Shown: positions 37,582 to 64,000 of the stretch, in pieces
Layout: the number at the start of each line of letters is the position of its first letter
Position numbering within the stretch: the first letter of the stretch is position 1
From: Hericium rajendrae
Taxonomy: Eukaryota > Basidiomycota > Agaricomycetes > Russulales > Hericiaceae
DNA: 64,000 nucleotides
Direction of reading: 5' to 3'
Assembly (NCBI GenBank): GCA_033439255.1
Contig: CM065880.1
Coordinates: 1,364,001-1,428,000, forward strand
Notes under the pieces: generated by a model
Databases searched by the model: none
Seen by the model: the letters and a program-made list of their open reading frames with translations, nothing else
Told to the model about the DNA's origin: nothing
Made by a program: the position numbers and the translations under genes

Positions 37582-37625
37582 AGAGAAGCGATTCGATGGA
37601 TCAAAGAAATGTTTCTTGCCACCCA

Positions 37626-39848: not shown

Positions 39849-39994
39849 TGCGAGACAAAAAAAAAAAGAAACAAATTTTATTCGAAGTCCCTAATATACA
39901 ATACAGTGGTATGCTACCTAGCGTGATAAGACAGAAACGTGCAGACTCGAAATCGAGACCAAACTGTCACGATTTCAAGCTGCAGGACATGTGG

Positions 39995-41135: not shown

Positions 41136-41375
41136 GAAAGATTACATACCTTATTCAGCTAGCGAAACGCTGGCTGCAACTGCCCGGGGCAGTGCTGGAA
41201 GCCCTGGCGCCGGAAGTAAGGCCGTTGGGCCGGAAGTGAGCACGGTTGTGCCATTCCGAGGTCGTTGGACCTGAATGAGGCCATTGGGCCCTGCGCGTGA
41301 GCCTCGGGGGGCAATGGAGGAGGTCGGAGGAGTGGGGAGAGGGATGTGGTGATGTTGCAGGGGATGGGCTTCAAA

Positions 41376-41658
41376 CATCAGGAAACCTGGAATGTTCTGA
41401 TTATTGTCTGATTTAGTCTGATTTAGTCTGATTTAGTCTGATTTTGCCTGATTCCAGATGATCAGACAGAAGTTAGGTAGGTCCCTATCATCCAGGTGCT
41501 TGTCAGACAAGTCTGATATCAGACCGAAGTCTGAATCTATCTGAATTTTATATAAAAATAACCTATATAAAATTTTATCCATATGTGGATCAGAGGTCTA
41601 GACATATCAGACAAGAGTCAGACAGTCAAAAAGTCAGACATTTCCCCTTTTCCTGATG
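41376..41658. mobile_element. Foldback element F (283 bp, TSD AA)
   Basis: CATCAGGAAA...TTTTCCTGATG ends, AA on both sides, TCTGATTTAG microrepeats inside. Body unlike A-E. Confidence 0.7.
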
Positions 41659-41661
41659 AAC

Positions 41662-41740
41662 GAGCACCAACTCGCTCGAAACGAGCGAGTTAGTGCTCAT
41701 CATTAGTTAAAAGATTGAGATAAGAAAGTTTATTACTCAC
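41662..41740 (-). repeat. GGTGAGTA plus 17-bp hairpin, inverted orientation
   Basis: GAGCACCAACTCGCTCG, loop AAA and its inverse with one mismatch (41662-41697); TACTCAC at 41734-41740, 36 nt away. It shares CTCGCTCG/CGAGCGAG with 6813-6842. Confidence 0.6.
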
Positions 41741-41881
41741 CTGCGTGGTCTGCAAAGCCTCCCAACATTCCACCCTGCCCCAACTACGTGAGAAGAATGC
41801 GAGAAGAGCGAAGTACTTACCTGGAGAAAGAGCAAGAGGTAGCACTTGCACCGGAAATCACGATCGGGCCTTACGTAATCT

Positions 41882-41959
41882 GCAGCACGAGCGAAATGAC
41901 GTACTGCTGTCCCCCTGGTGATGTCATGGGACGGGAGTACGTCATTTCGCCTGTGCTGC
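41882..41959. repeat. Hairpin with 24-bp arms
   Basis: GCAGCACGAGCGAAATGACG... pairs with ...CGTCATTTCGCCTGTGCTGC, one small mismatch pair, 30-nt loop. Confidence 0.65.
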
Positions 41960-42584
41960 GGGCGCTTAGCGGGCGCTTGCTGCCAGGCTCCTTACTTCTT
42001 CCCGTCATCTCGACAACCGTGCTCAAATCTTGTCTTCTTTGTGGTTTTCTTTAGCAGTGAGTCTAATTATTCTTATAATCTGTGTGTAGATGTATAAAAT
42101 GGCTAAAATAAATCATAATACCTACTATTTTTAGCAATCCGAGTGTGGATTGTCAATTCACAGGCATTTTGAGTACTTTCGGTATACTGTCGGAGCTGGG
42201 CGCTTCCTTTTAGCAGGTTGTCTTGATAGTAAGCTATATTTTTCTTATATCATATGCGTATGTATATGCTTACAGAGGTCTCAATAGCAAAGAGTCGGCC
42301 TCTAAAATCAGTGACATCTTTGGAGCTTTTTGTAGGGTTTGAGCAGTTTGGTCCGTTCGGTGCGGGATAGGTACTTCTTTTCAAGTGATTCTTTTTGGAG
42401 TGAATCTAATTGGTCTATCCATATGGGCCTAAAGCTAAAGATAGAGCAATAAATAGCTACTTTTCAACAACAACAATAAAAATATTTCAATTTGACATTT
42501 TTAGTGCTTTTTTCTATAGTAAGTCAACTTCTCTCATATTGTTTGCAAGTACTAAGACTGATATAAATTATAATAAATATAGTT
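41960..42584. other. AT-rich 5' region of gene b
   Basis: No ORF of note. Several exon-like CT-rich and TTTAG stretches suggest it may hold a 5' UTR. Confidence 0.3.
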
Positions 42585-45500: not shown

Positions 45501-47937
45501 AGCAACATGGCAACAGCTATTAAAAAATGCACTCCTGGATGTCTGGATCCTTTGCCTTCAGTTCAGAAAGGCCTACAAAACATTTCTGATCTTCTTCATA
45601 ACATTGCACTTCAATCTCTAGACACTCGTTGCAATCAATTTATAGTTATGATGTCTCATATGACAGCATGGCTATGGATTGATCATATTGCAAGCTACTA
45701 TGCAGATCAAGTCTTGAATGTCCATGCTGAGGATGAAGAAAACTGGATTGTGAAGCTTGGGCAAATATTGTTGGCTGCTGCTAATGCAACTAATTCATGC
45801 AATATCACTCTGACACCATCCCATTTTACTTCAAATCTTTCTACTGTGTCCAGTGTTATCTGTCTCCTACCTTGTCGCAATGATCTCAGCTCTGTTGACT
45901 TTAGCCCTCGAAAACACTTTCTTCAGCAATCTTTACGAATGACTTTAGGACAATGGTTAAATCCTGATCAAACTGTCTCTTCTCATGCTGTTGCTCAAGC
46001 ACATCAGGAAGGTTGACAACTTTCTGATTGACCTGACAATTTCTAACCCTACTGACAGCTTCTGATTGACCTGATCCACCTGAAAGCAATCTTGAGAAGC
46101 AAATATCTGATCAGACTTTTACATTCAAGAAAAGACATTTATTGTCAGATATATAAGTTTTTAATCTCTCACTAATAGATATATCAAAATCTTTGATATC
46201 TAAAATTTTTGAAAATCTGAGAGTGTCTGATTTTAAATCTGGAGGTCAAATATCAGTCAGATGGATCAGACAGTGTCAGACACCATCAGATGCTCTCAGA
46301 CAGTTGCAGATAATTTTCAGATATTTGACCTTCAGATTTGAAAAAAAATCTCAGATCAGACACTCTCAGATTTAGAAAATTTCAGATATCAGAGATTTTG
46401 TTATATCTATTAGTTAGAGATTACAAACTTATCTATCTGACAATGAATGTCTTTACTTAAATGTAAAAGTTTGATCAGATATTTGCCTGTTAAGATTGCT
46501 TTCAGGTGGATCAGATCAATCAGGAGCTGTCAGTAGGGTTAGAAATTGTCAGGTCAATCAGAAAGTTGTCAACCTTCCTGATGCAGTATTTGTACAGAAT
46601 CTAGTCTCTATTGCAGGTATGTTTATATATCAATAGTAATATTTTATAATATCTCATCATGATAAACAGGGATAGAGATTCTTTACTTGGAAAAGACTTT
46701 TGTTCTCTTCTGTGGATTTAGTCCAATGGTGGCAAAGAAAAAGCTACGGCGCTCCGTATCTCAAGATGATTTACAACATTTTTCAACTTGGCTATCTCAT
46801 CATGCTATTGTCATACCAGACACGGAGGAGCATAAACTCATGATGTCCATCAATGATGTTTGTGATCAATATTCTGGTTTCAACAAAGATGCTCGTAAAC
46901 ATATTGAGACCTTGCCAATTCCCTCTACTGCTAGTCAGTCTGAAGAGAGACATTCCCCTTCACCACATCCTCCTCTATTTTCTCATCCTCCACTTGGCCA
47001 CATAAAATGTCTAAAGTTTCTACATGCAGCTATATTCTTCCTGGATAGATCTTCTTTGAAGAATGAGCTGTCATTTACAGGTGATCTAGAATCTGCACCT
47101 CCAGAACATCAGGCCCTCCTTACAAAAATGGCTACACGACTTGACCATTATCTTCCCTTTCGTCAGCGTGCACCAAGTCTTGTGAGGATGAGAGAAGATG
47201 ATACTCCTTTTTCGCCAACAAATGTTCACTCTCAAGCTGGATTTTTCAGTGCTCTGATCTTCCGTGGCATCACTTATGGTTGCCAGTTTGTCTTGGATCA
47301 GAAGGCCATGTTTTCAGACCTAAAAGACTGGTCAGCCTGTTATGACAGCCTTAAATCCAATAAATCCTCAAATTATTTCTGTAACACCACAGCTTATGGT
47401 TGTCCAACCCAGCGTAGTGTTGAACATGCAGACAAATATTGGAGGGCAGCAAACTAGAATGGAAGAATTTGGTGGAAAGAACAGCACATTGCTCCTTTAC
47501 AGCATTCTACAAGTGCATCAAAAACAAAAAGTCAAAAACAAATGAAGTCATGTTCTATGGCTTTGGACCGCTTGTGGCTTATCTTCTCACTGCAGACTAT
47601 GCTTATACAGATGTCATTGATATGCCATCAGAGTATGATATGGGTGAACTTATATCAGAGATCCAAGCAGGAGCACTGAAAGGCCTAGCAAAATTACAAT
47701 TGATCCATCCTAAGGAGAAAAACAAGATGGTCATCAAAGATGCATTTGTTTTGCTATTTCATTTTCTAGATGCACGGCTGACTATAGAAGAGAAAGAGAA
47801 GATGGTGTTTGATCCTATTATGCTGGAACATACTTTATGTAAAGTATCTCGACTGTGGAACTTTGGGTTAGAGCAGTTGGTAAGATGTCTTATATATTTA
47901 TAAGTGATCAACTCTGATTTAATCTGTCTTATAGTAA
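42585..47937 (+). CDS. Gene b: putative 2OG-Fe(II) dioxygenase-like protein, many exons, hit by A6
   Basis: ATG at 42585. More than a dozen exons can be followed with consistent phase, from exon 1 (42585-42855, donor GTGAGT) to a final TAA at 47935-47937 made by splicing TTG|GTAAGA to TTATAG|TAA. Residues encoded at 43640-44030 contain GKHKDGYD, then YDPGRFHLLELGVFI, LLMHGGTSPKAP and TTVRLNAIGYP. This fits the HxD...H...R iron and 2-oxoglutarate ligands of a double-stranded beta-helix dioxygenase, and agaricomycetes carry expanded TET/JBP-like families of this type next to DNA transposons. A basic segment (KGKKRTRE...RRSKRLCHR) and an Asp/Glu-rich segment follow, then a long helical C-terminal part of unknown nature. 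Foldback A6 (46002-46583, TSD CA) lies in an exon, and the frame is continuous around it without the element. Substrate unknown. Confidence 0.55.
46002..46583. mobile_element. Foldback element A6 (582 bp, TSD CA)
   Basis: CATCAGGAAGG termini, CA on both sides, in an exon of gene b. Confidence 0.88.
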
Positions 47938-48026
47938 CTTGTAACAGATGGACGGAATGAAATATTGAATAGGTATCACGCGTACAGACAATCCAAAAAA
48001 AATACTTCGCAACAAACAATATTGAT

Positions 48027-49640
48027 CTACGCAGAACTAGAATCTTGCATAAAGGTGTCCTCTAAGCCTTCTACGACCGTGCTCTTTGTCTTCTTCACCT
48101 CTCTTGACATAGCGTCAACTGAGACCACATACATCAGGAACCTTCAAAACTTTCTGATGGATCCTGCAGAGTCTGATCAACTGCAAGACCTGATCTAGCT
48201 GCAGGCTCTAATTAGAGATCAATTTCTGATCAGAGCTTTTATATTTTGAAATCAATAACTATTGACAGATATAGTAGTCATCCAACTCTAATCATTAGAT
48301 GCAACAAACTTTTCAATATCTAAAATTTATATAAATCTGATCAGTTCTGATCAGTCTGTGAGCATTCTGCATTGATACTTTTTTGAATCTTGAGGTCAAA
48401 TATTCTGCAGCTAGCTGAGATTAGCTGATGTTGTCTGAGAGTATCTGATGTGTCTGATGCAACTGCTGCAGGTCATGCAGACACTGTCAGATGTCTCGCA
48501 GGTCAAACAGAAAGTTTTGAAGGTTCCTGATGTATCCAATGCACCTTTTCAATACCTTTGGAGGAGATGCCTTCTTCTGAAACTCAATAGAGTATGCTTG
48601 CATATCATAGGCCTAGTAACAATCTATCCGTAAGTCTCATCTATACAAAGATACAAACAAATTTACCTCTTGCAATTGACGATCAAGAATAGCTACAGAT
48701 CGCAACTTGCATGCCATCTGATACAACCCTTTTTTTCCAGACAGAGGTACCGTAACAAAAGACACTTGCACCTGAACAATCTGACCAGGTCGAATGATGG
48801 CTGGATCAATAGTGATATAGTGATAATCAGAAGATCTAGAGGTTTTAACATTAGTAAAATACAACACAAGAGTCGGCATAGAGTTGACGTATGTGCTGTT
48901 CCACTTTCTTTCATAGTACTCAACCTTATTATCATCAAGATGAGCACCTGCAGTGGATGTGGCCAGTAGCAAGACGCCTTGTGGATCCATGACATCCCCA
49001 AAGGGTACAGGACTTGAGCCGTTGACAAGTGAGAGAGGAGTGACGTAACGGTTGGCAAAGCTAAGGCTTGCATGACTCTCAACTTGATCAGGAACCCATG
49101 GTCTGAGACCTTTCACCGAATAGATGCTATCTATGAGACGATGGATAGCTGCAACACCGGCAACTGATTGATCAAAGAGAGGAGATCCTATTCCTAGTAG
49201 GCGAACGCTCTGTTTCGCCCAAATGATCTTCGTAGGTAGACTGTCATATGTTTTTAAGCAAAGAGAAAGACGACAAAAGCAGATAATAACACACCTGTTG
49301 CGATCCAAAATTGGTGGCAAGTCATAGTCTAACAAGACACCTTGTCCTTCCCAGACGGCTTCCTCCATCTCCGCATCAGGATCCGAGTTTCGCAACACAA
49401 CCTTTGCAGATCCATCTACGGCTTTATGTGCGACATAGTTCTCTCTCAAGAACTTCATCTAACAAAGCTAGTTAGCTGAATTCTAACAATAGTAAGGTAT
49501 GAATACGCACATCAGACATATTGCTGAGTTGAAGATGATGTGGTAACTGCTTTACAGCATCATCACTGATCTTTATAAGATGTGCTCCTACATATTCATG
49601 AGACAAACTATACAGAGACAAAACACCAATCACTTACGGC
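48027..49640 (-). CDS. Gene c: unidentified conserved-looking protein, hit by B7
   Basis: Minus-strand gene. The 5' end is uncertain (exon pieces visible to about 49640; YVGAHLIKISDDAVKQLPHH at 49510-49585). Further exons encode MKFLRENYVAHKAVDG (49458), then a long exon with IIWAKQSVRLLGIGSPLFDQ, FGDVMDPQGVLLLATSTAGA and a beta-rich IIRPGQIVQVQVSFVTVPLS part. The last exon runs through B7 (48132-48532): the sequence on its two sides is one open frame when the element and one TA are left out, ending in TAG at 48027-48029. Family and function unknown. It is divergent from gene d, with a CCAAT-bearing repeat between them. Confidence 0.5.
48132..48532. mobile_element. Foldback element B7 (401 bp, TSD TA)
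   Basis: TA on both sides, in the last exon of gene c. Confidence 0.88.
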
Positions 49641-50019
49641 AATCTGGCTTGTCTTAAAACTCAATCAAAGGTATAGACATCTTAAATGATGCGTAGAATG
49701 TATGGATAATGAAAACAATCCTAAGAGGGGGGAAAAGAAGAAAGATAGGACAGGATGGCAGAACTGCAAAGAATGGACGGAGCATTCAAAATTACGATGT
49801 GGTCTGATTCTGACTCTGTTTTTTCTATTGGTCCGCATTAACAACAAGATCATCTAGATTCATAGCAGCACAATCCGGTCTATGTTCTTTGTGAACGTAG
49901 TAAGGTGCGGGCTTATTTTCAAATGTATCAAGATTACAATTCAACAATTTCAATTTCAATAATCCTTTGTGATCGAGATTTCTTGGTGTCATCTCCGCTT
50001 AAGTCCGGTCAAGGCTTGG

Positions 50020-50560
50020 CTACTCGAAAGATCTCGCTTAGAACATATTGCTTCCGAATCAATGGTCAATGGCTTCATGTTATGCCTAGCGCTTTGCTCA
50101 CTGCTTCTTTCAATTGCTCTCTTGAAATTTCATTGCTGGTTGTCCCTCTTCCGGTCCAATGGGCATCCTGTGTTTTATGTTTGTTCCGAAGCTTCAGGTC
50201 CAATGGTACGTGTCATCTTGTCTTAAGCTCGCTTAATGTTCAGCTACTTTGCAGATCTCGCTTAGAACATATTGCTTCTGAATCAACCGTGAACAGTTTC
50301 ATGCTATGCCTAGCGCTTTGCTCACTGCTTCTTTCAATTGCTCTCTTGAAATTTCATTGCTGGTTGTCCCTCTTCCGGTCCAATGGGCATCCTGTGTTTT
50401 ATGTTTGTTCCGAAGCTTCAGGTCCAATGGTACGTGTCATCTTGTCTTAAGCTCGCTTAATGTTCAGCTACTTTGCAGATCTTGCCTAGAACATATTGCT
50501 TCCGAATCAACCATCAAGGGTTTCATGTTATGCCTAACACTTTGTTGTCCGGTTGAAATT
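50020..50560. repeat. 224-bp direct repeat (about 2.3 units) with CCAAT boxes
   Basis: Two nearly identical full units and a partial, more diverged third (GCTTTGCTCA at 50091 and 50315, diverged at 50539). Each full unit has two CCAAT boxes (50156, 50200, 50380, 50424), between the divergent genes c and d. Confidence 0.8.
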
Positions 50561-50910
50561 CTATATTTTACATTTCCAATGTTGGCTACAAACATCCTAA
50601 GAACATACGTATTTTTACCGTACTTCGGGCCAACGCTGAAGCATTTTGTAGATCTCAGGTTCCGATTCTCTTGTTCATCTTGCTCTGCATCTTGCTAATT
50701 CTTATTTGTTTTGGATATTCAGTTACTACTTGACATGTCACCATACCCCAAAGATCTGTCAGACCGATTTGATAGGTGACTACACAAATTCAGATGTAAG
50801 CATGATCTCTATCATAATATTTCCAATTGCATCGTTTATCCGTGCATTCACAAAGTATGACTTGAGGTCTAAGTCAGATTTACACCTGCCCTAAACTCCT
50901 ATCCTCATTT

Positions 50911-50918
50911 TATATAAG
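50911..50918 (+). promoter_or_regulatory. TATA box of gene d
   Basis: TATATAAG 129 bp before the ATG, with a CT-rich tract after it. Mirrored at 63872-63879. Confidence 0.5.
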
Positions 50919-51039
50919 AAGAGAGCAGTTCAATCGCTTTGCCTCAGCATTTGCTGCCCCACTGTTCTTCTGCATCTTTGCTGGCACTTCATTTGTCTTA
51001 TTGCACGTCTATTATCCTCTTTTTATACCTTTTTTCATC

Positions 51040-53220
51040 ATGAATACTCGGTCTCGCAGCAACAAGGACAAGGTCCTTGCTCTTCCTTCCACCCCTGTTC
51101 GTAAGCCCAAGATGACCGTTCAACCTTCGGCTCCCAAGGGACTCAGCCGAACATCATCTCTGGCTAGCTCACTAGGTTCTATGAACTCGTATGTCTTTAT
51201 TTTGTGCAATTATATGATTGGGCTAATGCTGTTGACAGTAGGAAGAGAGCTTTGGAAGAGCCAGTGTTCGAGTCCGATGAAGAGTACACTTATCTTTTTG
51301 GGATTTTGTTTCATACTTTTCTGACCATTTTGTGCGTAGGCCAGAGTTGCAGACTCCATTGACTACACGTTTTAAACGGATGGCTAAAGCAGATCGGTGA
51401 GTTTTTTTATCTTTTACTGTTTAGATATGCATTAACATAAGAATAAGAGAGCCTCTCAGCTTACGCAAAACATCAGAAACGACTAACAATAATGGAACTG
51501 CTTCTGCCCCAAAGAAACAGAAGATGAACGAGAAGTACGTATATGTTTTTTTTCATATATTTGCTTTCTTGATATTGTTGTCTTTGCAGAAAAGAGCGTA
51601 CTTTGGTATCAGATGATGAGTACGTGATTTTATTGCATTCTTCACATGCATAGTCCAAGCTTGCTTAGCTTTATAATTGTACTTGGCAGTCCATTTTCGA
51701 TTAAGGAGGTTAATCCTCAGAAGACGTATGTCGTACAGTTTTATCTGTAGAATGATTGCTGATTTGCCTACACATTATAGATCAAAGGATGTCTTTTTAG
51801 ATGACGAAGCTGCTGACACTACAGATGCAATGGTTTCTGATGACGTGCAGAAGAGCACGGATGAAAACAAAGAGAATCAAGACAACATTGACTTGGACGT
51901 GATGGACAACAATCTGTATGTTATTGTCACATCTATCGGAATACTAAATCATTCTTCTTTCAGAATTCCAGAGGGCTGCAATGTCACCATTGCTACGTTG
52001 ATTGATCCCCTTATGACAATGTTTTACAAACAACTTCCACCTCTAAAGTACGCTTGATTTTTGTTGTAAGCTTTTCCAAATGACTTACAACTCTTTTTTC
52101 TTATAGCACGTCTACTAGTCTGATTGGTGGCAGTGTAGATGTCACGACCTATGCAGTTAGTCGTCTGACAGATGATGCCTACGGTAACATTACACTCGAG
52201 TAAGTTTATTGTTCAACTCATTTCATCATACAATATATTAATAGGGTATGTGCACAGCTATCTCCTTCAGATTATCACATTTCAGGAGAACCGATCTTTG
52301 AATTTGATGAATCCCTCTCGTGCAGATCCAAGTGACTTTGTTGCTATGCCTTTAGGCACCGGCCATGCTATTGCATTCAAGGACGGAAATAAAAGCACAG
52401 CCTTGTGTCTCACCGTTGGATTTGTTGTAGATTCTCATCTAGCCAATGCACGGGTGCTGGAAAGCAGTATGTTCTTTATTGTTATCATCTCTTGTATGCA
52501 ATTTGACTATCTTATTTTAGATGGACGTCAGATCAAAGAGCTCTATGTCTCTCCCTTGAGCATGGAATGGGAAAGGGCTTTGGCATTCTACGGCCTGGTC
52601 TTTCAGAAGTCCAAGCTAAGCATATACTGCATGGACAATGCACTTCCTTTTTCAACTGCGATGAGTCCGGTTGCACCTTCTTCCTCCAAAAAGAAATCTC
52701 AGTCATCCGGCAAGTTTTGCCCATTATCTTTATCAACCTGAAATACTAAGTGGAACTATACATTAGGCTCCAAGGAGTTGGCCACTCCGTCTTCCAAGTC
52801 ACGAGACAAGTGGTCCAATGTTAGCCCAGCTTCTCAGGCTACAGGGACCGATGCCACATTCAAGATGGGGATCAAAGGAATGAGTAAGAGAGCCATTCCG
52901 GTGTCCTATGATGGTAAGTGCGTCTATCTTGTTGTTTTCATCAACTAACTCCGTCTTTTTGTTATACAGTTCCAGTGTGGGACTGCACCGCACTTTACAA
53001 GCGTATTGGTGATGGAGGATCTGTTGACCGAGGAGATCCATCTCTTTTGTTCGGTAGAGCTCATACGCATTCTGAGGTCAAGGTGATTCAGGATGATTTG
53101 CATGCTGGAGATGTAGTTGCAATTATTCATACCACATCCCATTGGATGAAAGGCGATTTCTCCAACCTTAGTCTTAACATCCAGGGTGTCTACTTGCTTG
53201 CTCGCGAAAAGGAGGATTAA
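51040..53220 (+). CDS. Gene d, left copy: unidentified protein with many tiny exons
   Basis: ATG at 51040 (MNTRSRSNKDKVLALP). About a dozen exons, several of only 30-60 nt (for example KERTLVSDD and PFSIKEVNPQKT), joined by 45-60 nt introns. It ends with VYLLAREKED and TAA at 53218-53220. The first third is Lys/Ser-rich and disordered with an acidic stretch (DDEAADTTDAMVSDDV). The rest is beta-rich (TALCLTVGFVVDSHLANARV, LYVSPLSMEWERALAFYGLV) and ends in a compact domain (VPVWDCTALYKRIGDGG ... DLHAGDVVAIIHTTSHWMKG) that could bind nucleic acid or protein; this is a guess. The frame is intact. An identical copy lies inverted at 61570-63750. It is probably Helitron cargo. Confidence 0.6.
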
Positions 53221-53338
53221 TATATTACTTAGTAGAAGCGTTGAAATTCTAAAATCTTTGTTTTGACTTTTATATTAGGACTCAAATATATCTTTTTAAT
53301 TATGCATCATTGCGTGTGATTGAAAAAAAAATTCAATT

Positions 53339-53368
53339 GGATTCTATCACTATTGAGCGATAGAATCC
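53339..53368. repeat. Perfect 10-bp stem hairpin between gene d and Helitron ORF
   Basis: GGATTCTATC, loop ACTATTGAGC, GATAGAATCC. Mirrored at 61422-61451. It could be a terminator-like or transposon structure. Confidence 0.65.
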
Positions 53369-53408
53369 CATAAACGAGGTAGAGATCCTTGCTTAGACCA
53401 TCGCCTTA

Positions 53409-53751
53409 GTGCTATTATTTGCTATATTTGTGGTGAGTTCTTTGATGATATATTTAGATAAGGACCACTCCAATTGCTACGTGCAGCTAACATTGGCCAA
53501 AGTGCCTGTATCAAAGTGTACAAATAATTGGACCAAGGTGCTCGCACTACAAAAATTACATGTTATGACATGCTTAATTTTAATATTGCTATTATGCATA
53601 ACCGAAGCCAAATTGAGCAGACAAAAGTCCTTCTTTATTGAATGGATATCATCTTATAAAGATAGTATATCATACAACACACAAGATAGTATGAAAAGTA
53701 ATATCTTGTTGTCAATAAATATCAAAAAGCCACAAATGTTAGGTGGTTCTA
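53409..53751 (+). pseudogene. Helitron ORF 5' fragment of the left arm
   Basis: Encodes the same first ~115 residues as the 808-residue ORF at 61381 and then stops at element A7. Remnant of an older Helitron copy in opposite orientation. Confidence 0.8.
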
Positions 53752-53955
53752 CATCAGGAAGGTTGACAACTTTCTGATTGACCTGACAATTTCTAACCCT
53801 ACTGACAGCTTCTGATTGACCTGATCCACCTGAAAGCAATCTTGAGAAGCAAATATCTGATCAGACTTTTACATTCAAGAAAAGACATTTATTGTCAGAT
53901 ATATAAGTTTTTAATCTCTAACTAATAGATATATCAAAATCTTTAATATCTGAAA
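53752..53955. mobile_element. Foldback element A7, left part only
   Basis: CATCAGGAAGG end intact with TA before it. The mirror arm shows the empty site (single TA at 61039-61040). The element is cut at about 53955, where the Helitron 3' end begins. Confidence 0.88.
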
Positions 53956-54021
53956 CTTGGGGGGAGAGGGCCGATGCTTCGCATGGCAAGACGATTCCTT
54001 TTTTATTTATTTATTTAGTCA

Positions 54022-57000
54022 TTAAGGTGCATAAATAAGTAAACTTGCTTCTCGCTCTTTTGCATAATGCAAATTATCAAAACCTGACAGCATACCTTCA
54101 AACTCACATTGCCTACCAGTAGTTACTCCATCATAGTACCAGATTCTTTTTCCTTTGTCAATAATTCTTGCAGTAAAATGAACATCTCCAAAATACACTA
54201 TAGCCACCAGTTTGAATGATGTCTTTTCATTATTTGTATGATGCTTCATGGTAAATGAGTGATTTATTTTAATGTTGTGATAGTCAAGTTCTACTGCTAT
54301 CAATGGTGGACTGTTGTTGGTAAAAACAGTAGTAGTATGAAGTGCACTATTGCACTGAGGGCATTTTTTCATACTAATTCCATTCATAATTTTTCCTAAT
54401 TCACTAGCAGTATTTGAGTCTGCAGACAAGCTAGAAATATGCCATACAAGATTATGAACATTTTCAGTCACAGAATACTCACAAGATGTACAATTGTCTT
54501 CTACATATCCTACATCTGTTTGACATGCAAGTATAACAGAGGTTAACTCTCTGATATCAGTTCCCACTCCTTGTGTATTAGGAAATTTGATAGGGTCAAA
54601 TTGTGTGAGCAAAGCTCTAACATTTTTTCTTACTAACTCAAAGTCAGAATGTTCCAAGTGAGTCCATTCATTATTCAATGTACTACAGTAATTGTTCAAA
54701 TTTGCTAAGTGATCTTCCCAAAGATCTCTTTTTGTCCTAAAAATATGATAAAGGATGGTAAACAATGTATCATATGCACAGCTCCAAGTTTGACCACACC
54801 ATTTCAATCCAATAGGAGAAGAAACTTTTACCTTTGAAGTACCACTTGTTTTTTGTTTTTTTATCTTTCTTTTATCAGCAGCTTCTTTACTAACCTGATC
54901 TAATGCTTTTGTTCCATTTGCCGTATCAAAGCTATCTGGCTTCTCTTCAAATGTTACAAGCTTTCTTTTCTTAAGATTATCAGGCTCCTCTATACTATTT
55001 TTATTAATTGTATTAGTCTTTTGTTTGACTAAAATTGTCCATTCTGCATTCTTTGTGTTATGAAGAAGTTCAAAAGGATCTGATTTTGTCCATTTGAGTG
55101 GAGCAGGCACATTTGGTGGGACATAGTCAACTCCTTTCCACATTTGATACTGCTGGATGCGAGCTGCTCTAGTAGGAGCATCAATGATTGCAGGAAGTTT
55201 TTTGTAATATTGAAGACAAGTTATTTCATCTAATAGCTCAAGCTCTCTAAATTCTGATCTTAGATATCCAGGGAGTCTTCCTTTAATTTTGTCAGTATTA
55301 AACTGCTGAAGAATGGCTGTTCCAGCAATACTTGAGCTTCGTGAGAGAGCAGTATAGACTCCTCTTTGGTCCTTACAATTTTGAATATCAACAACATTGA
55401 ATGGTCGTGTTCTTCCTTGAGAAGCATAGTCTGTCATTGAAAAGTTAGGTAGGATAGGAATCTGAGATCTACTAATCCATATTTCTTTATCATTGGGCAT
55501 AAAGCATTTGATTTTCTCTTCAACTCTGGAGATAAAAACAACATTAAGAGGCAGCCCTGTGAGTTGCACTGGCTTAGGTGCACAAGTCAATCTCACAAAG
55601 ACTACATCTAACACAAGCTTATCATCAATACCAGTATGACACTTCCATCCTACGACCACACCTTCAGCTCCATTGGTAACACACATCTCAGTTGCTTCAT
55701 TGTGTTTGAGCATGACAGGCATTCCTATACACAAAGATAATTTTCCTGCATAGTGTTTGGTCATAGATGGAATTAACTCCCATAGTTTTCTTTGCAAGGT
55801 AATGTGAATTTGATTGTTTGCTCTTATAGGATCACTATACATATTTTTTTTCTTTTTACTTGACAAAGATTCATCAGCCTTATGCCATCTATCTATAGAA
55901 TAAAAGTGTACAAGCTTTTGGCTGGACTCTATTCCACATCGAATTGTTCCTGCTTCATTAATTTCATCTCTCTGAATATTGAATGATGTAATGATAGATA
56001 CATTTCGAAATTGAGGATCTGCAATGTTGGGTCTATTGGCCCCAGGTCCTGTAATTCTAGATCTAAGAAGGTTGATATCATCTTCTGTACAATATTTGTA
56101 TCTCATATTTTCTAAAGCTCTTCTGAATCTAGCATCATCAGGTGTCTGTGTTTTTTGGCGCATATTCTGTCTTAAAATTACCACAGTCACAAACTGATGC
56201 CATAATGCTTTTCCTAAACAAGCCTTTTGTTTTAGATGAGAATGAGTAGTGTGAATTACAGTATCTACATCTTGGCTGTACAAGGCACTATTAGCAGGAG
56301 GAGGCAGTTGAGCAAAGTCACTAGCAAGAATGATGTTTACACCTCCAAAAGGCTGATTTTCTACTTTAAGTGCACTGCTCATTTGGGCACTGATATTGTA
56401 TAAACTATTGCAATCTACCATAGACACCTCATCTAAAAAGATGTACTGAACATGTTGAAGCCTAGTACGAATATCAGCCAGAGTAGATACACCTTTGCCT
56501 CCTTCTGGTTGAAATTTATTGATAGCTAACATAGAATGGTATGTCGATCCTCCTATCAAAGCTGCTGCAGCTCCTGTAGGTGCCATGATTAAAAATTTGT
56601 AAGACTCTTGTCTCTGCTCAAAAAACTTGATCATAGCTTTGATGACTTGTGACTTGCCTGTGCCAGCCATACCCCCTAAATACATCTTGAGCTGCTCAGA
56701 CTGTGGAGTCACAGCATGATTTGCAATAGTTTTGAATGCTCTTGATTGCTCAACATTTAGTGTGAATGTCTTAGCTATTTTATCAATGTTTAATCTATCC
56801 TCTGGATTTTTTGGATGATAATTGTAATCTAAATATGCTTTACTCACCAACTTGACTTCATTTACATTATAAGGATCTCCATAGGAAGTATCATTATTCT
56901 TTTCTGCATTGCTAGCTTCAAGATCTCTTTTGGCCAAAATGATATCTTTTTCTCGTGCTAGAGTTGCTTTCCATTCCTTTTGAGACTTGGATAACATGAC

Positions 57001-59025
57001 ATTCTCATCAACAGCATTTTCTGTCTGCTCTACTTTACTTGGATTTAACCATCCAGTACCTTGAATAACTTTATGCATCTCATACATATCTGTCAGTCTT
57101 TTTTGTTGTTTTTTGCCTATATCATCCCATTCTTCTTGAAGCTTTTCTGTAAGACTATCAACACCCCAGTTGGCAGTTGCTTCATCTTCATCATGTTGAC
57201 CATCAAGCTCATGCTGAAATGTGGCAAAGATTTTATCACCAAAGCTATCATTCAGTGCTTGTTGTTTTCGTTGTGCAGAAAAATCATCTCTAGCATCATT
57301 GCATTCATATTTGATTTGAAAAAAATCTATCACCTGCTTTTGTCGAGAAGTAAACTTGTAATTCTCAAATGCATCATCCCATGACTGTTCTTTCTTTTTG
57401 AGATCCAGACCAGATCTCCAAGGCTTGAATAATATAAGCATAGTCTGACAATACTCCTCTCTATTTCCTTTATCCCTTCTGGGCAAAGGACCTCCAGTGA
57501 AGTTTGGCACTTTACTTTTGCTCTCATCAAATTTATGAATATAATGACTTTTTAATTGAGGATGAGGCTCAATAAATAACATTTTTGGTACTATTTTTTT
57601 CTTTGTATCTTGATTATGATTTTTTGGATCATAATCCTTATCATTTGGATCATACTCTTCTTCATCCTCTTCTTCTTCATCAGTATATACATAGTCATCG
57701 TTCTCCTCCTCTTCATATTCTATCTCTTTTCTCTTTTCCTCTTCTTCTTTCACATCAATGTCCATTTTTTCAGTATCATCCACATTCACATCTAAGATGT
57801 ATTCATCCTTAGACTGTGATTTTTTACTTGAGGAATATGATTTTGATTTTTTTAGTCCACTCAATGGCCTTTTTTCATATAGACGTATCCAATCATATAA
57901 AGTCACATCACTTAGTTCTTTTGGTCTATACATATAATCAAGAATTGGAGACAAGCCTACTAACTTTCCTCGAATTTGATTTAGTATCACTTTATCAGGA
58001 ACATTTTCATGAAAATCATCAATTTGATTCCAATCTTGGCTCACTTGTTTTACATATGTACTCCAAAAGAAAACTTTGAACAAGTGACTTGTGTAGTGAT
58101 CTGGATGAGACAAAAGATACATACATGCCATGGGAGATCCCATTTCTAATTTTACAGTCAAAGAATTTACTATCTGAACTATTAACTTTCTTGCTTTTTC
58201 TTGTCTAGAGCTGTCACCACCAATATAAGTAGTATTTTTATCAAATACACTGCGAATAGCTTGAAACATGACATGAGTATTTAAAGGTGACTTGGTAATG
58301 TAGTCAGTAATATATGCAACAATAGACTTAATGGCAGTTCCTGAAAGCATACTAGTTACATCTGTATTACATCCCAAAAGATATGTTAAAGGTGTGGAAA
58401 ATGTATTGAGCATGGCCTCTCCTTTTTTCATGATAATGCTACCACTGTCCTTGTCTATTAAAGAAGCTAGATATGTGTCTCTTGGAAAACGAGCTTTGCA
58501 ACTGTCATATTTTTTATTCTTGCAACCTCCTTTATCGCAACTGTGAACATTAGACAAATATAAAAGTTCATTGACTCTCTTTTTAAAATGTGTCCACCAT
58601 GAACATGTTTCTTGACAATTGCTGCAATCCATTACATATTCATTTGTATTATGCTCCACTTCAAAGCTTGATACTAAAGGTACATCATCTTTTTTTACAT
58701 GTATTTTGCATGGTTTGGGTGGAGCTTCTGGTAAAACTTGAGTTGGTTCAACATAGTGTACATCCTTTTCTACTTGTTGTATCATGTCATTTTCTACTTT
58801 TGCCATAGTGCTATCTATAAATTCTCCTTGATGACAACTTTCTAAGTATCTAATCATCTCCTTTTGAAACTCTGAAGTAGGGTCTAAAATTCTATCTCTA
58901 ATTTCCTGAGGTGACAAACAATCTTGAATCCAGATCATAGTATGCAAATGAAGGCTAACGACCTTGTTGTTCCACAGTTCCATAGTATCCAGCAGTCTTA
59001 CCATACAATCCTCTTCTTTTGTCAT
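54022..59025 (-). CDS. Helitron Rep C-terminal part, PIF1 helicase and USP-like peptidase fusion
   Basis: 1,667 codons. Residues 25-40 hold the HUH motif (SLHLHTMIWIQD), and a YLESCHQGEF tyrosine follows. A Cys-rich block (CSNCQETCSW ... CDKGGCKN) and a long acidic linker lead to the PIF1 helicase: Walker A GGMAGTGKSQ near residue 787, Walker B FLDEVSMVD near 865, and later helicase motifs including TDYASQGRT. After a Lys-rich linker the last ~260 residues (WCGQTWSCAYDTLF near 1410; FTARIIDKGKRIWYYDG near the end; a CxxC finger between) look like a ubiquitin-specific-protease fold with plausible Cys and His. The first ~20 residues are out of frame: Rep enters from the upstream ORF by a single frameshift at about 58960, just before the HUH motif. 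Confidence 0.8.
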   Translation of the reverse strand: MTKEEDCMVRLLDTMELWNNKVVSLHLHTMIWIQDCLSPQEIRDRILDPTSEFQKEMIRYLESCHQGEFIDSTMAKVENDMIQQVEKDVHYVEPTQVLPEAPPKPCKIHVKKDDVPLVSSFEVEHNTNEYVMDCSNCQETCSWWTHFKKRVNELLYLSNVHSCDKGGCKNKKYDSCKARFPRDTYLASLIDKDSGSIIMKKGEAMLNTFSTPLTYLLGCNTDVTSMLSGTAIKSIVAYITDYITKSPLNTHVMFQAIRSVFDKNTTYIGGDSSRQEKARKLIVQIVNSLTVKLEMGSPMACMYLLSHPDHYTSHLFKVFFWSTYVKQVSQDWNQIDDFHENVPDKVILNQIRGKLVGLSPILDYMYRPKELSDVTLYDWIRLYEKRPLSGLKKSKSYSSSKKSQSKDEYILDVNVDDTEKMDIDVKEEEEKRKEIEYEEEENDDYVYTDEEEEDEEEYDPNDKDYDPKNHNQDTKKKIVPKMLFIEPHPQLKSHYIHKFDESKSKVPNFTGGPLPRRDKGNREEYCQTMLILFKPWRSGLDLKKKEQSWDDAFENYKFTSRQKQVIDFFQIKYECNDARDDFSAQRKQQALNDSFGDKIFATFQHELDGQHDEDEATANWGVDSLTEKLQEEWDDIGKKQQKRLTDMYEMHKVIQGTGWLNPSKVEQTENAVDENVMLSKSQKEWKATLAREKDIILAKRDLEASNAEKNNDTSYGDPYNVNEVKLVSKAYLDYNYHPKNPEDRLNIDKIAKTFTLNVEQSRAFKTIANHAVTPQSEQLKMYLGGMAGTGKSQVIKAMIKFFEQRQESYKFLIMAPTGAAAALIGGSTYHSMLAINKFQPEGGKGVSTLADIRTRLQHVQYIFLDEVSMVDCNSLYNISAQMSSALKVENQPFGGVNIILASDFAQLPPPANSALYSQDVDTVIHTTHSHLKQKACLGKALWHQFVTVVILRQNMRQKTQTPDDARFRRALENMRYKYCTEDDINLLRSRITGPGANRPNIADPQFRNVSIITSFNIQRDEINEAGTIRCGIESSQKLVHFYSIDRWHKADESLSSKKKKNMYSDPIRANNQIHITLQRKLWELIPSMTKHYAGKLSLCIGMPVMLKHNEATEMCVTNGAEGVVVGWKCHTGIDDKLVLDVVFVRLTCAPKPVQLTGLPLNVVFISRVEEKIKCFMPNDKEIWISRSQIPILPNFSMTDYASQGRTRPFNVVDIQNCKDQRGVYTALSRSSSIAGTAILQQFNTDKIKGRLPGYLRSEFRELELLDEITCLQYYKKLPAIIDAPTRAARIQQYQMWKGVDYVPPNVPAPLKWTKSDPFELLHNTKNAEWTILVKQKTNTINKNSIEEPDNLKKRKLVTFEEKPDSFDTANGTKALDQVSKEAADKRKIKKQKTSGTSKVKVSSPIGLKWCGQTWSCAYDTLFTILYHIFRTKRDLWEDHLANLNNYCSTLNNEWTHLEHSDFELVRKNVRALLTQFDPIKFPNTQGVGTDIRELTSVILACQTDVGYVEDNCTSCEYSVTENVHNLVWHISSLSADSNTASELGKIMNGISMKKCPQCNSALHTTTVFTNNSPPLIAVELDYHNIKINHSFTMKHHTNNEKTSFKLVAIVYFGDVHFTARIIDKGKRIWYYDGVTTGRQCEFEGMLSGFDNLHYAKEREASLLIYAP

Positions 59026-61381
59026 TGAATCTCAATACATGTTTGATAAACAAGTCCACCATGAGTTTGAAAAACCTGGCACCTGCTACAGGATTGCTAG
59101 CAATAAGACGAAACTGCTCATCCTTTCCATAAAGCTTTGGATAGAATCTTATGTCTTTGTCAGCAAAATACAAACAGATAGGATGTTTAAGATCTGCTGG
59201 TGCAAATGTAATAAACCAAGACGGAGCACCCAAATATGATATAAGAGACCAGATCTCATTTCTCATATATTTGCGACCTGTCTTTGAACCTTGTACATGA
59301 TGAGCAACATGGTCCAAATCATTGATAATTTGATAACAGAGTTTTTCCTCATCTGTCTCTGGTTGTACTCTTTCTCCCTCAGCCAATCTATCTATAAGTT
59401 GACTCAGAACTTCTGGATTCACTGACATGAGTCTATCTGCTATATTGGAAAAATTGGCTTTTTTGGCCAAAAGGTAACCACCTGTTGTACTCTCTTTGAT
59501 TTGATCGTGATTGATACAGACCAAGGGAAACATAGCCTCATATTGAAATCTTTTGTCATGGTACATCAATAGATCATTTTTTCTTGCATGATCAGAGATT
59601 TTTACACTGCCATTGCTATTGCCAACACCCCCTAGGCCATATGGAAATAGCCATGGAAATATTTGAGGATAAAGCTGAGGATTGTTATATATTGACTCTG
59701 GATTTGCAGCTTGTCCAACTCCTAAAGCTCTGTTGTTCTTGCCTCTCATATGCTGTAAAGCAATTGCTCTAAGCTGTTGAGTAGTCTTTTTCTCCAAATC
59801 TCCACCTATCAAACCATGTACAATAAAGGGACATTTTCCAGACTCTACACCTTGAAGAGGTTCATCAGACACCGACATCATTCCAGACTCAATAGCATCA
59901 TCTGAAATTTTGCACTCTACAACTACAGGAGGAATGTCTTCTGGATATGTGTTCAGATTCTCATAAGATATATCCAAGTCAGCATAATCAATATGATTAA
60001 GCTTAAGCCATTCTAAAGCATGAGCAACTTTGTTTCTTCGAACCAAAAGAGGCGTTTGCTTAAATTCTTTTTCTGTAGGCTGAGTTTGACCTATATAAAC
60101 AAATGCCATAACTTCATCTAATTCATCAAGGCTAGGTGGAAGCTTTGCATATATCTTAGGCATAGGAGTAGAGAAAAAAACTGCATTTGCTGACATTTTG
60201 TGTAAGCCAGACTTGTGCACGCGTACAATGCATCGGTTGTGACACACCCTTGAGATAAGCATCTTTTCTGTCCAGCTGAGATTCTGTAGCTGCTCTGGAA
60301 TCTCACCTATCCAATTGCCATTGATTAGAGCATGTTTTGGTATCTTTCTCTTTTTTAACTCTTGAAGACAAATATTACAGATGCTTTGTGAGTGTTTATC
60401 AAGTAAGGGTCCTTTATAAGATTGTATTATATCTGATGACATGTGTCTTTCCTGCCTTGCAATGAAAATATTGTCAGTTTCAAGGATAGACAAGTCTAAA
60501 TCATGTTCAGACATATCTGTCAGATGTTGAAGTGAAGTCAAAAGACCACAGACACTACATAAGCTCTCCAATATCATATTTGATTGTATATCATTACAGT
60601 ATTCAGAAACAATATCTTCAATAAGTGTTTTTGAAGGAGGACTTGGAGGAAAACATGATTCATCTTGCTGGACCTTCTTTGTATTTTTTCTATATTTTTT
60701 ACATTTTATGCTATTTTTATTTTTAGCAAGTTTAAACAATGTGAAATATTGTTGACAATTTTCTGTCTTACAGCTATGATTGTTCAATTTATTTTGCAAG
60801 TCTTGCAACATATTTTGATTGTTTGCTTGTATCTTATGTTGACAGCATATATTAATAATAGCACTTTTTGTGAGCCTAGTCAGCTTGGAAATTGGAATAG
60901 AAGTTATAATCATATCATTAGCTGCTGGTATTAAATCTTCACTATGAGAAACGAAGTTCCAAGATGTGTTATTATGAAATATAGCATCTCCTTGTATAAA
61001 GTCTGAGATTTCATCATATGACCAAGTTGCCTTTGTAGTAGAACCACCTAACATTTGTGGCTTTTTGATATTTATTGACAACAAGATATTACTTTTCATA
61101 CTATCTTGTGTGTTGTATGATATACTATCTTTATAAGATGATATCCATTCAATAAAGAAGGACTTTTGTCTGCTCAATTTGGCTTCGGTTATGCATAATA
61201 GCAATATTAAAATTAAGCATGTCATAACATGTAATTTTTGTAGTGCGAGCACCTTGGTCCAATTATTTGTACACTTTGATACAGGCACTTTGGCCAATGT
61301 TAGCTGCACGTAGCAATTGGAGTGGTCCTTATCTAAATATATCATCAAAGAACTCACCACAAATATAGCAAATAATAGCAC
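58955..61381 (-). CDS. Helitron Rep N-terminal part with DUF6570 domain
   Basis: 808 codons ending GYYGTVEQQGR. The first ~115 residues are hydrophobic and may include an unspliced leader; they lie in the inverted repeat. The middle has a C/H-rich region (HSCKTENCQQYF) and the DUF6570 pattern (CHNRCIVRVHKSGLHKM ... KIYAKLPPSLDELDEVMAF ... LLVRRNKVAHALEWL). The C-terminal third is Helitron-like N domain (LFPYGLGGVGN, GAPSWFITFAPADLKHPI). The frame breaks by one nucleotide into the next ORF, so this copy probably makes no full Rep protein unless a frameshift occurs. Confidence 0.75.
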   Translation of the reverse strand: MLLFAIFVVSSLMIYLDKDHSNCYVQLTLAKVPVSKCTNNWTKVLALQKLHVMTCLILILLLCITEAKLSRQKSFFIEWISSYKDSISYNTQDSMKSNILLSINIKKPQMLGGSTTKATWSYDEISDFIQGDAIFHNNTSWNFVSHSEDLIPAANDMIITSIPISKLTRLTKSAIINICCQHKIQANNQNMLQDLQNKLNNHSCKTENCQQYFTLFKLAKNKNSIKCKKYRKNTKKVQQDESCFPPSPPSKTLIEDIVSEYCNDIQSNMILESLCSVCGLLTSLQHLTDMSEHDLDLSILETDNIFIARQERHMSSDIIQSYKGPLLDKHSQSICNICLQELKKRKIPKHALINGNWIGEIPEQLQNLSWTEKMLISRVCHNRCIVRVHKSGLHKMSANAVFFSTPMPKIYAKLPPSLDELDEVMAFVYIGQTQPTEKEFKQTPLLVRRNKVAHALEWLKLNHIDYADLDISYENLNTYPEDIPPVVVECKISDDAIESGMMSVSDEPLQGVESGKCPFIVHGLIGGDLEKKTTQQLRAIALQHMRGKNNRALGVGQAANPESIYNNPQLYPQIFPWLFPYGLGGVGNSNGSVKISDHARKNDLLMYHDKRFQYEAMFPLVCINHDQIKESTTGGYLLAKKANFSNIADRLMSVNPEVLSQLIDRLAEGERVQPETDEEKLCYQIINDLDHVAHHVQGSKTGRKYMRNEIWSLISYLGAPSWFITFAPADLKHPICLYFADKDIRFYPKLYGKDEQFRLIASNPVAGARFFKLMVDLFIKHVLRFNDKRRGLYGKTAGYYGTVEQQGR

Positions 61382-61421
61382 TAAGGCGATGGTCTAAGCA
61401 AGGATCTCTACCTCGTTTATG

Positions 61422-61451
61422 GGATTCTATCGCTCAATAGTGATAGAATCC
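61422..61451. repeat. Mirror of the 10-bp stem hairpin
   Basis: Inverted copy of 53339-53368, between gene d' stop and the Helitron ORF start. Confidence 0.65.
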
Positions 61452-61569
61452 AATTGAATTTTTTTTTCAATCACACGCAATGATGCATAATTAAAAAGAT
61501 ATATTTGAGTCCTAATATAAAAGTCAAAACAAAGATTTTAGAATTTCAACGCTTCTACTAAGTAATATA

Positions 61570-63750
61570 TTAATCCTCCTTTTCGCGAGCAAGCAAGTAG
61601 ACACCCTGGATGTTAAGACTAAGGTTGGAGAAATCGCCTTTCATCCAATGGGATGTGGTATGAATAATTGCAACTACATCTCCAGCATGCAAATCATCCT
61701 GAATCACCTTGACCTCAGAATGCGTATGAGCTCTACCGAACAAAAGAGATGGATCTCCTCGGTCAACAGATCCTCCATCACCAATACGCTTGTAAAGTGC
61801 GGTGCAGTCCCACACTGGAACTGTATAACAAAAAGACGGAGTTAGTTGATGAAAACAACAAGATAGACGCACTTACCATCATAGGACACCGGAATGGCTC
61901 TCTTACTCATTCCTTTGATCCCCATCTTGAATGTGGCATCGGTCCCTGTAGCCTGAGAAGCTGGGCTAACATTGGACCACTTGTCTCGTGACTTGGAAGA
62001 CGGAGTGGCCAACTCCTTGGAGCCTAATGTATAGTTCCACTTAGTATTTCAGGTTGATAAAGATAATGGGCAAAACTTGCCGGATGACTGAGATTTCTTT
62101 TTGGAGGAAGAAGGTGCAACCGGACTCATCGCAGTTGAAAAAGGAAGTGCATTGTCCATGCAGTATATGCTTAGCTTGGACTTCTGAAAGACCAGGCCGT
62201 AGAATGCCAAAGCCCTTTCCCATTCCATGCTCAAGGGAGAGACATAGAGCTCTTTGATCTGACGTCCATCTAAAATAAGATAGTCAAATTGCATACAAGA
62301 GATGATAACAATAAAGAACATACTGCTTTCCAGCACCCGTGCATTGGCTAGATGAGAATCTACAACAAATCCAACGGTGAGACACAAGGCTGTGCTTTTA
62401 TTTCCGTCCTTGAATGCAATAGCATGGCCGGTGCCTAAAGGCATAGCAACAAAGTCACTTGGATCTGCACGAGAGGGATTCATCAAATTCAAAGATCGGT
62501 TCTCCTGAAATGTGATAATCTGAAGGAGATAGCTGTGCACATACCCTATTAATATATTGTATGATGAAATGAGTTGAACAATAAACTTACTCGAGTGTAA
62601 TGTTACCGTAGGCATCATCTGTCAGACGACTAACTGCATAGGTCGTGACATCTACACTGCCACCAATCAGACTAGTAGACGTGCTATAAGAAAAAAGAGT
62701 TGTAAGTCATTTGGAAAAGCTTACAACAAAAATCAAGCGTACTTTAGAGGTGGAAGTTGTTTGTAAAACATTGTCATAAGGGGATCAATCAACGTAGCAA
62801 TGGTGACATTGCAGCCCTCTGGAATTCTGAAAGAAGAATGATTTAGTATTCCGATAGATGTGACAATAACATACAGATTGTTGTCCATCACGTCCAAGTC
62901 AATGTTGTCTTGATTCTCTTTGTTTTCATCCGTGCTCTTCTGCACGTCATCAGAAACCATTGCATCTGTAGTGTCAGCAGCTTCGTCATCTAAAAAGACA
63001 TCCTTTGATCTATAATGTGTAGGCAAATCAGCAATCATTCTACAGATAAAACTGTACGACATACGTCTTCTGAGGATTAACCTCCTTAATCGAAAATGGA
63101 CTGCCAAGTACAATTATAAAGCTAAGCAAGCTTGGACTATGCATGTGAAGAATGCAATAAAATCACGTACTCATCATCTGATACCAAAGTACGCTCTTTT
63201 CTGCAAAGACAACAATATCAAGAAAGCAAATATATGAAAAAAAACATATACGTACTTCTCGTTCATCTTCTGTTTCTTTGGGGCAGAAGCAGTTCCATTA
63301 TTGTTAGTCGTTTCTGATGTTTTGCGTAAGCTGAGAGGCTCTCTTATTCTTATGTTAATGCATATCTAAACAGTAAAAGATAAAAAAACTCACCGATCTG
63401 CTTTAGCCATCCGTTTAAAACGTGTAGTCAATGGAGTCTGCAACTCTGGCCTACGCACAAAATGGTCAGAAAAGTATGAAACAAAATCCCAAAAAGATAA
63501 GTGTACTCTTCATCGGACTCGAACACTGGCTCTTCCAAAGCTCTCTTCCTACTGTCAACAGCATTAGCCCAATCATATAATTGCACAAAATAAAGACATA
63601 CGAGTTCATAGAACCTAGTGAGCTAGCCAGAGATGATGTTCGGCTGAGTCCCTTGGGAGCCGAAGGTTGAACGGTCATCTTGGGCTTACGAACAGGGGTG
63701 GAAGGAAGAGCAAGGACCTTGTCCTTGTTGCTGCGAGACCGAGTATTCAT
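61570..63750 (-). CDS. Gene d, right copy
   Basis: Inverted copy of 51040-53220 with the same exon structure and every encoded segment I compared identical. ATG at 63750, stop at 61570-61572. It lies 188 bp upstream of the Helitron ORF on the same strand, which fits it being carried inside the Helitron. Confidence 0.6.
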
Positions 63751-63871
63751 GATGAAAAAAGGTATAAAAAGAGGATAATAGACGTGCAATAAGACAAATG
63801 AAGTGCCAGCAAAGATGCAGAAGAACAGTGGGGCAGCAAATGCTGAGGCAAAGCGATTGAACTGCTCTCTT

Positions 63872-63879
63872 CTTATATA
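63872..63879 (-). promoter_or_regulatory. TATA box of gene d, right copy
   Basis: Mirror of 50911-50918. Confidence 0.5.
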
Positions 63880-64000
63880 AAATGAGGATAGGAGTTTAGG
63901 GCAGGTGTAAATCTGACTTAGACCTCAAGTCATACTTTGTGAATGCACGGATAAACGATGCAATTGGAAATATTATGATAGAGATCATGCTTACATCTGA

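Follow-up and report, generated by a model that had tools for sequence, protein, structure and literature searches.

A 64,000-nucleotide stretch of the Hericium rajendrae genome (GenBank assembly GCA_033439255.1, contig CM065880.1, positions 1,364,001 to 1,428,000; hereafter the window) contains a large part of a giant inverted repeat in which one Helitron is nested within another. We propose that a 26,034-bp Helitron2-like element, YH, inserted in inverted orientation into A7, a 581-bp foldback element residing in the RepHel gene of an older copy, OH, and that YH is a multi-gene element whose RepHel and five accessory gene regions are mobilised together and kept under selection. We assign this explanation as a whole a probability of roughly 0.93. 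X denotes the position on this contig (C3) minus 1,364,000, so that the window covers X 1-64000 and larger values of X lie in the right flank. YH positions run from 5' to 3' along the element, starting at ACGATT and leaving the leading TT uncounted. CP2, C5, C11, C4h, C14, C12 and C2 are further copies with contig-based names. The genome searched comprised 46.8 Mb on 19 contigs. In several searches, only part of the candidates was scored (40/494, 40/308, 57/131 and 28/204), and counts from these searches are thus lower bounds; the search for gene 313 scored 61 of 61.

Nested architecture and termini

YH occupies X 53956-79989 on the minus strand; its portion at 53956-64000 lies within the window, and its 5' end at X 79989 lies beyond it. 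OH is a 5'-truncated sister copy (X 38027-88037) on the plus strand. Its left part (38027-53751) is 97.65-99.37% identical to YH in inverted orientation, and the element resumes at X 80367-88037. A first-pass annotation, made from the letters of the window, had described an inverted repeat of 2.9 kb. The repeat is indeed perfect between 50790-53752 and 61038-64000 (2,963 bp, 100% complementary), but this segment is only the part bounded by the window edge, past which 501 further bases match exactly. The true arms extend over ~15 kb, with self-BLAST homology between 38026-53752 and 61038-76064 in pieces of 97.65-99.37% that are broken by arm-private A7 inserts. One insert is private to OH (46002-46583), where YH is empty, and tells the arms apart; another is private to the YH arm (X 69222-69803).

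The insertion site is readable on both sides of YH. OH, with the first 343 bp of the listed Helitron open reading frame (ORF) at 53409-53751 on the plus strand, reads ...GGTTCTA up to 53751, and A7 begins at the next base. The first 204 bp of A7 (53752-53955, plus strand) stop exactly where the Helitron 3' end starts, as the annotation had observed. It had also predicted that, to the right of the window, the Helitron 5' end would be followed by the rest of A7 and by the remaining plus-strand Helitron ORF, and the right flank contains all three. The 5' end at X 79989 is succeeded by 377 bp of A7 (X 79990-80366) that end in CCTTCCTGATG, and the two parts add up to 581 bp. OH then continues (L012 position 367) with TACTACAAAGG, which places TA on both sides of this A7. 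The ORF remainder extends over X 80367-86200 on the plus strand, and a further A7 (X 86201-86781) and the segment X 86782-88037 complete OH up to its 3' end. The TA target-site duplication (TSD) of A7 and the corresponding empty site in the other arm, both part of the same annotation, can be read in OH and YH, respectively: the intact YH frame GGSTTKA is the empty site of the A7 in OH. An uninterrupted A7 copy elsewhere displays the joined site CAAAAATTTCAG, and YH lies between the A and the T of A7. The insertion interpretation of the annotation is therefore supported by the flank that the window did not include.

The left boundary of OH, at YH ~3924, coincides with an A7 copy (37001-37581) and a related 401-bp miniature inverted-repeat transposable element (MITE; 37626-38026), as judged from self-BLAST, the sequence and the start of OH-YH homology. 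The lost 5' part of OH was not found in the window, and the matches listed for C3 include no further JmjC match or long match to the 588-bp YH 5' segment; related Helitron 5' ends do exist on C3, for example at C3:1495559.

The YH 3' end (53956-54000, minus strand) consists of the terminal CCCCCCAAG, the hairpin GCCATGCGAAGCATCGGC (53970-53987) and the 3' asymmetrical terminal inverted repeat (ATIR) AAGGAATCGT (53991-54000). The ATIR is 10 bp long and is located 2 bp off the 5' end and 35 bp off the 3' end, upstream of the 3' hairpin. Hairpins are found at both YH ends, with minimum free energies of -6.8 and -7.9 kcal/mol (RNA parameters, without shuffle control). In the loci retrieved, TTACGATTCC opens 13 distinct 5' ends, T follows all 23 distinct 3' ends, and CAAG terminates 22 of these 23, a proportion that is partly due to the search pattern itself. 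The target is N|T, with a preceding A in 7/13, T in 3/13, G in 2/13 and C in 1/13 cases. No TSD is present at four empty sites, two of them in A7 (YH and C11) and two in sister Helitrons (C4h and the 22.7-kb inner element of C5). For the flanks of CP2, an empty site was not found in the sequences searched.

YH RepHel (54022-61393, minus strand) is modelled with two main exons, 59007-61393 and 54022-58954, and a 52-nt intron. The ~2,400-residue model matches the Pfam families DUF6570 (E 1.4e-42), Helitron_like_N (1.7e-21) and PIF1 (1.3e-25); the first protein used as a Pfam query deviates from the model in its first N-terminal residues. Helitron_like_N and PIF1 score above the Pfam curated cut-offs, and the missing TSD and clean empty site likewise place YH in the Helitron superfamily. 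Its ends are TT...CAAG rather than the 5'-TC...CTRR-3' of Helitron1, and a 5' hairpin is present. Helitron2 elements, as characterised in the cited part of PMC3627910, have ATIRs of 8-15 bp, the 5' one 0-2 bp from the end and the 3' one upstream of the 3' hairpin. YH shares with that group the ATIRs, hairpins at both ends, 5' T, RepHel and the mostly absent TSD, but it is a 26-kb multi-gene element, its 3'-ATIR lies 35 bp from the end instead of the ~20-30 described there, and its target is N|T with A preceding in 7/13 cases rather than TTTT|T/C. Neither part of RepHel had a Pfam match, up to E 1, to the AP-type endonuclease domain of Helentrons.

Given this arrangement, A7 would first have inserted into the RepHel gene of OH, producing the TSD TA, and YH would then have inserted, inverted, between the A and the T of that A7, creating the giant inverted repeat. 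YH transposition would proceed by RepHel rolling-circle replication, with the 5'-ATIR and hairpin as a putative start and the 3' hairpin as a putative stop. The nested pair shows how such Helitrons generate very large inverted repeats. FoHeli of Fusarium also has Helitron2-type ends, and its opposite-orientation self-insertion is discussed in the cited part of PMC5148889; that case concerns elements of ~5-11 kb and one nested non-autonomous copy, whereas YH is a complete, RepHel-bearing nested element of 26 kb with a visible empty site.

Divergence between the arms

The first-pass annotation noticed no difference between the arms and regarded the event as young. The former is correct for one tract, in which YH and OH are identical over 3,549 bp (YH 15487-19035, X 60953-64501), the OH counterpart consisting of 50289-53751 on the plus strand plus a last ~86 bp from X 80367. 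Over the full length, 155 of 21,505 aligned bases differ between YH and OH (0.72%), compared with 111 of 25,052 (0.44%) between YH and CP2. The differences include a hot window, YH 7001-8000 against OH (X ~41,800-42,800), with 44 differences in 1 kb, most other windows having 0-18; conversion from a more diverged copy is perhaps its cause. Outside the tract and the hot window, the YH-OH rate is 111/16,977, from which 23.2 differences are expected in the tract. The observation of none (Poisson P 8e-11) calls for a local process, and the tract is best read as the product of gene conversion between the inverted arms, judging from sequence comparison. As a local anomaly, the identical tract is no proof of youth, and the young age proposed for the event is not upheld. 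More generally, arm-to-arm conversion can make an insertion seem younger than it is.

Close kinship of YH and OH, instead of conversion, is an unlikely but serious explanation of the tract. In the tract, CP2 differs from YH and OH at 25 sites and C5 at 17, and at 11 sites CP2 and C5 agree against the variant common to YH and OH, as kinship would have it; some of the 25 CP2 differences, five of them in YH 15489-15502, are clustered in repeat sequence, where they may stem from the alignment. YH and OH also have in common a 401-bp MITE (48132-48532 in OH, X 66258-66642 and YH 13340-13730 in YH), which is confined to them among the seven copies compared and is absent in CP2, C5, C11, C12 and C14. 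Closer kinship or another conversion event may account for this MITE, which is separated from the tract by sequence with differences. Kinship is opposed by the full-length comparison, in which YH is more distant from OH than from CP2, and by the complete lack of differences where 23.2 are expected. We thus favour gene conversion for the tract.

At three-way comparable sites, OH has 120 private substitutions and YH 32. Those of OH include 82 C>T or G>A changes, and 41 lie in the hot window. The excess fits an older OH. The annotation had taken OH to be YH's own older copy, which does not hold: OH is a sister copy that already contained the A7 missing from the YH ORF, which means that OH, as it stood, was not the template of YH.

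Cargo genes and selection

Five cargo gene regions precede RepHel in YH, in an order that is common to the close family. In splice models, they are a JmjC-like gene (YH ~607-5089, minus strand, three models), gene B (~7352-9979, plus), the gene C region (~10800-13292, plus, two models), gene 313 (13835-14983, minus) and gene d (~16000-18418, plus; spliced by eye for the Pfam query), followed by RepHel (18595-25966, plus). In OH, multi-exon gene B lies at 42585-44658 (plus strand; protein matches C3:1406585-1408658), and the gene C region at 44988-48062 (plus strand, start approximate; YH models mapped over, protein matches C3:1409939-1412062) is split by the A7 at 46002-46583. Gene 313 of OH is at 48637-49591 on the minus strand (main ORF 48637-49458), and multi-exon gene d is at 51040-53220 on the plus strand, its YH counterpart being at 61570-63750 on the minus strand. 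The first-pass annotation had placed gene d within the Helitron as cargo. This assignment stands because the 5' end of the element is common to other copies, which puts the other cargo genes inside the element as well.

Selection was tested on eight exons, with C14 as the comparison for six and C2 for the two of gene d; the saturated dS of a diverged family was not used. The pooled ratio of nonsynonymous to synonymous change (pN/pS) is 0.32 (Fisher p 1.1e-17), compared with 0.98 and 1.48 in shifted frames, for which codons reading as stops were left out. The JmjC exon dominates the pool, and the remaining seven exons have ~38 nonsynonymous and ~41 synonymous changes, a ratio of 0.27. In every one of the five cargo genes, one or more exons reach an uncorrected p < 0.05. 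The five accessory regions borne by 26-kb copies of a single Helitron each include one or more exons with measurable purifying selection.

Gene 313 is found at 12 near loci with 93-99% amino acid identity and at eight diverged loci with 63-69% identity in the best stretch. Rows left out of this count were short fragments beside counted matches, a 37-residue fragment at C9:1889058 and a 25% match at C5:333818. At least 17 of the 20 loci, counted by eye, are accompanied by a RepHel match that lies no more than ~35 kb away, with the strand and side expected; among the matches listed, the loci lacking one are C14, C5:1.08 Mb and C9:1.896 Mb. Three of the five cargo genes (JmjC-like, 313 and d) recur in the diverged family (eight loci), with amino acid identities of mostly 38-42% for the JmjC-like gene, 63-69% for gene 313 and about 42-58% for gene d, and with 79-91% for RepHel. 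At the protein-search sensitivity used, the diverged family yielded no match to gene B or C. C14 has a JmjC-like gene with 67-80% identity, next to genes 313 and C with 94-97%, and its DNA likeness to YH drops from 96-97% to 73-78% toward the 5' end. From these likenesses, 5' cargo seems to have been exchanged between copies. The 25% match to gene 313 (C5:333818-334372, E 3.4e-4) lies off the Helitron clusters and is a possible host relative.

The accessory genes look like long-kept working parts and not accidental passengers. It is very improbable that they are functionless host gene pieces that were passively captured. Gene capture is common in Helitrons according to the cited parts of PMC4289320 and PMC6431247, and some cargo copies contain stops, but passive capture does not account for purifying selection that disappears in shifted frames and reaches an uncorrected p < 0.05 in at least one exon of every cargo gene, or for the recurrence of three cargo genes near RepHel in the diverged family. 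The latter source, a 2019 review, gives 14 kb as the size that fungal Helitrons reach and describes full-length host gene capture as exceptionally rare, within the part cited. In the cited part of PMC4289320, the HELPO1 Helitrons of Pleurotus resemble YH as fungal elements with one to four gene-like captured genes beside RepHel, but the longest is 13.3 kb, compared with 26 kb, five gene regions and three genes recurring in a diverged family here.

The whole JmjC-like model had no Pfam JmjC match, and a single-sequence PDB search with it was discarded as it returned 10 matches (E 0.11-8.1) without a JmjC protein. A profile of three subfamilies gave five PDB matches (E 0.095-0.86), all of them KDM7 or PHF2 JmjC proteins, and one of the three subfamily members matched Pfam JmjC (E 0.009). 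Residues H44, D46 and H117 (HxD...H) are invariant across the three subfamilies and align with the HxD and H of the KDM7 homologue 3n9l; we take them to be the JmjC iron triad. A JmjC fold of the cargo protein is likely from these alignments, and such a protein might counter chromatin silencing. One could tentatively picture the element as a mobile island whose own KDM7/PHF2-like chromatin eraser and co-inherited accessory proteins keep it expressed in heterochromatin, and which settles inverted in sister copies as palindromes with arms kept alike by gene conversion, although we consider this broader scenario doubtful. Fungal Helitrons bearing TET/JBP likewise carry dioxygenase cargo that is thought to counter silencing (PMC12730594, in the part cited), but the domain here is JmjC-like (KDM7/PHF2-like), and the term 'jmjc' occurs 0 times in that paper. 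If the JmjC-like gene encodes an active demethylase, transposon-borne chromatin erasers become a directly testable question.

Single-sequence AlphaFold2 models of the C-terminal 270 residues of RepHel and of the gene 313 ORF had mean predicted local distance difference test scores of 37.1 and 32.1, respectively, and were not used. Scans of viral contigs found no relative of RepHel or gene 313. A possible cysteine protease likeness of the RepHel C-terminal region was set aside, as Pfam and PDB gave nothing convincing.

Related copies, alternative origins and neighbouring elements

CP2 (C3:1507438-1534018) is a second complete copy. It aligns colinearly with YH across 26 kb in pieces of 99.4-100% and has A7 inserts at other places. 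In the C11 copy, of which ~8 kb was read, the two ends pair at a distance of 25.9 kb, and the element is inserted at A|T of another A7. The C5 outer copy extends over 53 kb and holds an inverted 22.7-kb relative (C5:1348219-1370877) at YH 24765, together with the 5' end, the part that was read, of a further inverted relative at YH 13264 (C5:1337090). C4h (8.3 kb) interrupts gene d of another copy at YH 17246, also in inverted orientation; it was rejected as a plain cargo-free autonomous Helitron, as it consists of YH 1-1566 and YH 24185-end around a foreign middle. All four Helitron-in-Helitron insertions examined (YH in OH, C4h and two in C5) are inverted, which has a chance of 1 in 16 and is no more than suggestive.

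These copies bear on the origin of the inverted repeat. An assembly artefact, either a fold-back or a head-to-head join of two haplotypes, would explain the 3.5-kb stretch that is identical between the arms, but we give it hardly any credence: the arms differ at 155 of 21,505 positions and by private A7 inserts (46002-46583 in OH, X 69222-69803 in YH), the junctions coincide with transposon ends, A7 is intact once rejoined, and comparable nested insertions exist at other loci. Least credible of all is a segmental inverted duplication or template switch that merely included the Helitron, for although the arms are long and collinear, the YH segment runs from a Helitron 3' end to a Helitron 5' end common to unlinked copies, and its insertion has a clean target and no TSD.

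Several observations weigh against nested insertion of a selected multi-gene Helitron as we propose it. Both junctions rest on the assembly, the 5' end of OH is missing, and the YH ends differ from those of canonical Helitron1. The exon models come from a simple splice script and reading by eye. Three of the eight exons singly miss p 0.05, and the p-values are uncorrected. No named relative of genes B, C, 313 or d emerged from the searches made, including Pfam, and the E-values for JmjC are weak (0.095-0.86 in PDB; 0.009 for one member in Pfam). In the diverged family, gene 313 and the JmjC-like match are separated by 22-52 kb, and a search of 14 kb at C6 did not reveal the element ends; hence, we infer rather than observe one element per locus there. 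RepHel shows little constraint between YH and the very close C11 (33 nonsynonymous and 12 synonymous changes), and stops occur in several further RepHel copies. These close-copy changes and stops indicate that selection works on the lineage while single copies decay; against more distant copies, RepHel pN/pS is 0.17-0.31.

A7 ends in CATCAGGAAGG...CCTTCCTGATG and is 85-87% self-complementary. Its inverted ends and its TA TSD in OH are those of a terminal inverted repeat or foldback element; the copy at 37001-37581 is without flanking TA. Nine complete copies, ~97-99% alike, occur in 90 kb (5996-6577, 12754-13335, 20169-20750, 24206-24786, 37001-37581, 46002-46583, X 69222-69803, X 86201-86781 and X 88072-88652), and two 26-kb Helitrons, YH and C11, target A7. 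Copies of the 401-bp MITE are located at 13824-14225, 16376-16776, 23761-24161, 37626-38026, 40230-40630 and 48132-48532. The ends of the MITE at 37626 resemble those of A7 (CATCAGGAA...), and A7 and the MITE form a unit of ~1,040 bp that is present in two inverted copies (23759-24797 and 36990-38028).

At 30802 on the minus strand, the window contains a diverged Helitron 3' end (..CCACCAAG|T) that is ~81% like the YH 3' end over ~190 bp; a motif scan of the window did not find its 5' end. Two further ORFs of the window are presumably those of a gypsy-like polyprotein (25892-29220) and a Plavaka-like element (3557-5029), as would suit a basidiomycete. At another locus, L022 (C4:1805001-1815000), two Helitron 3' ends lie tail to tail at 1923-1928 with the four bases TATA between them.

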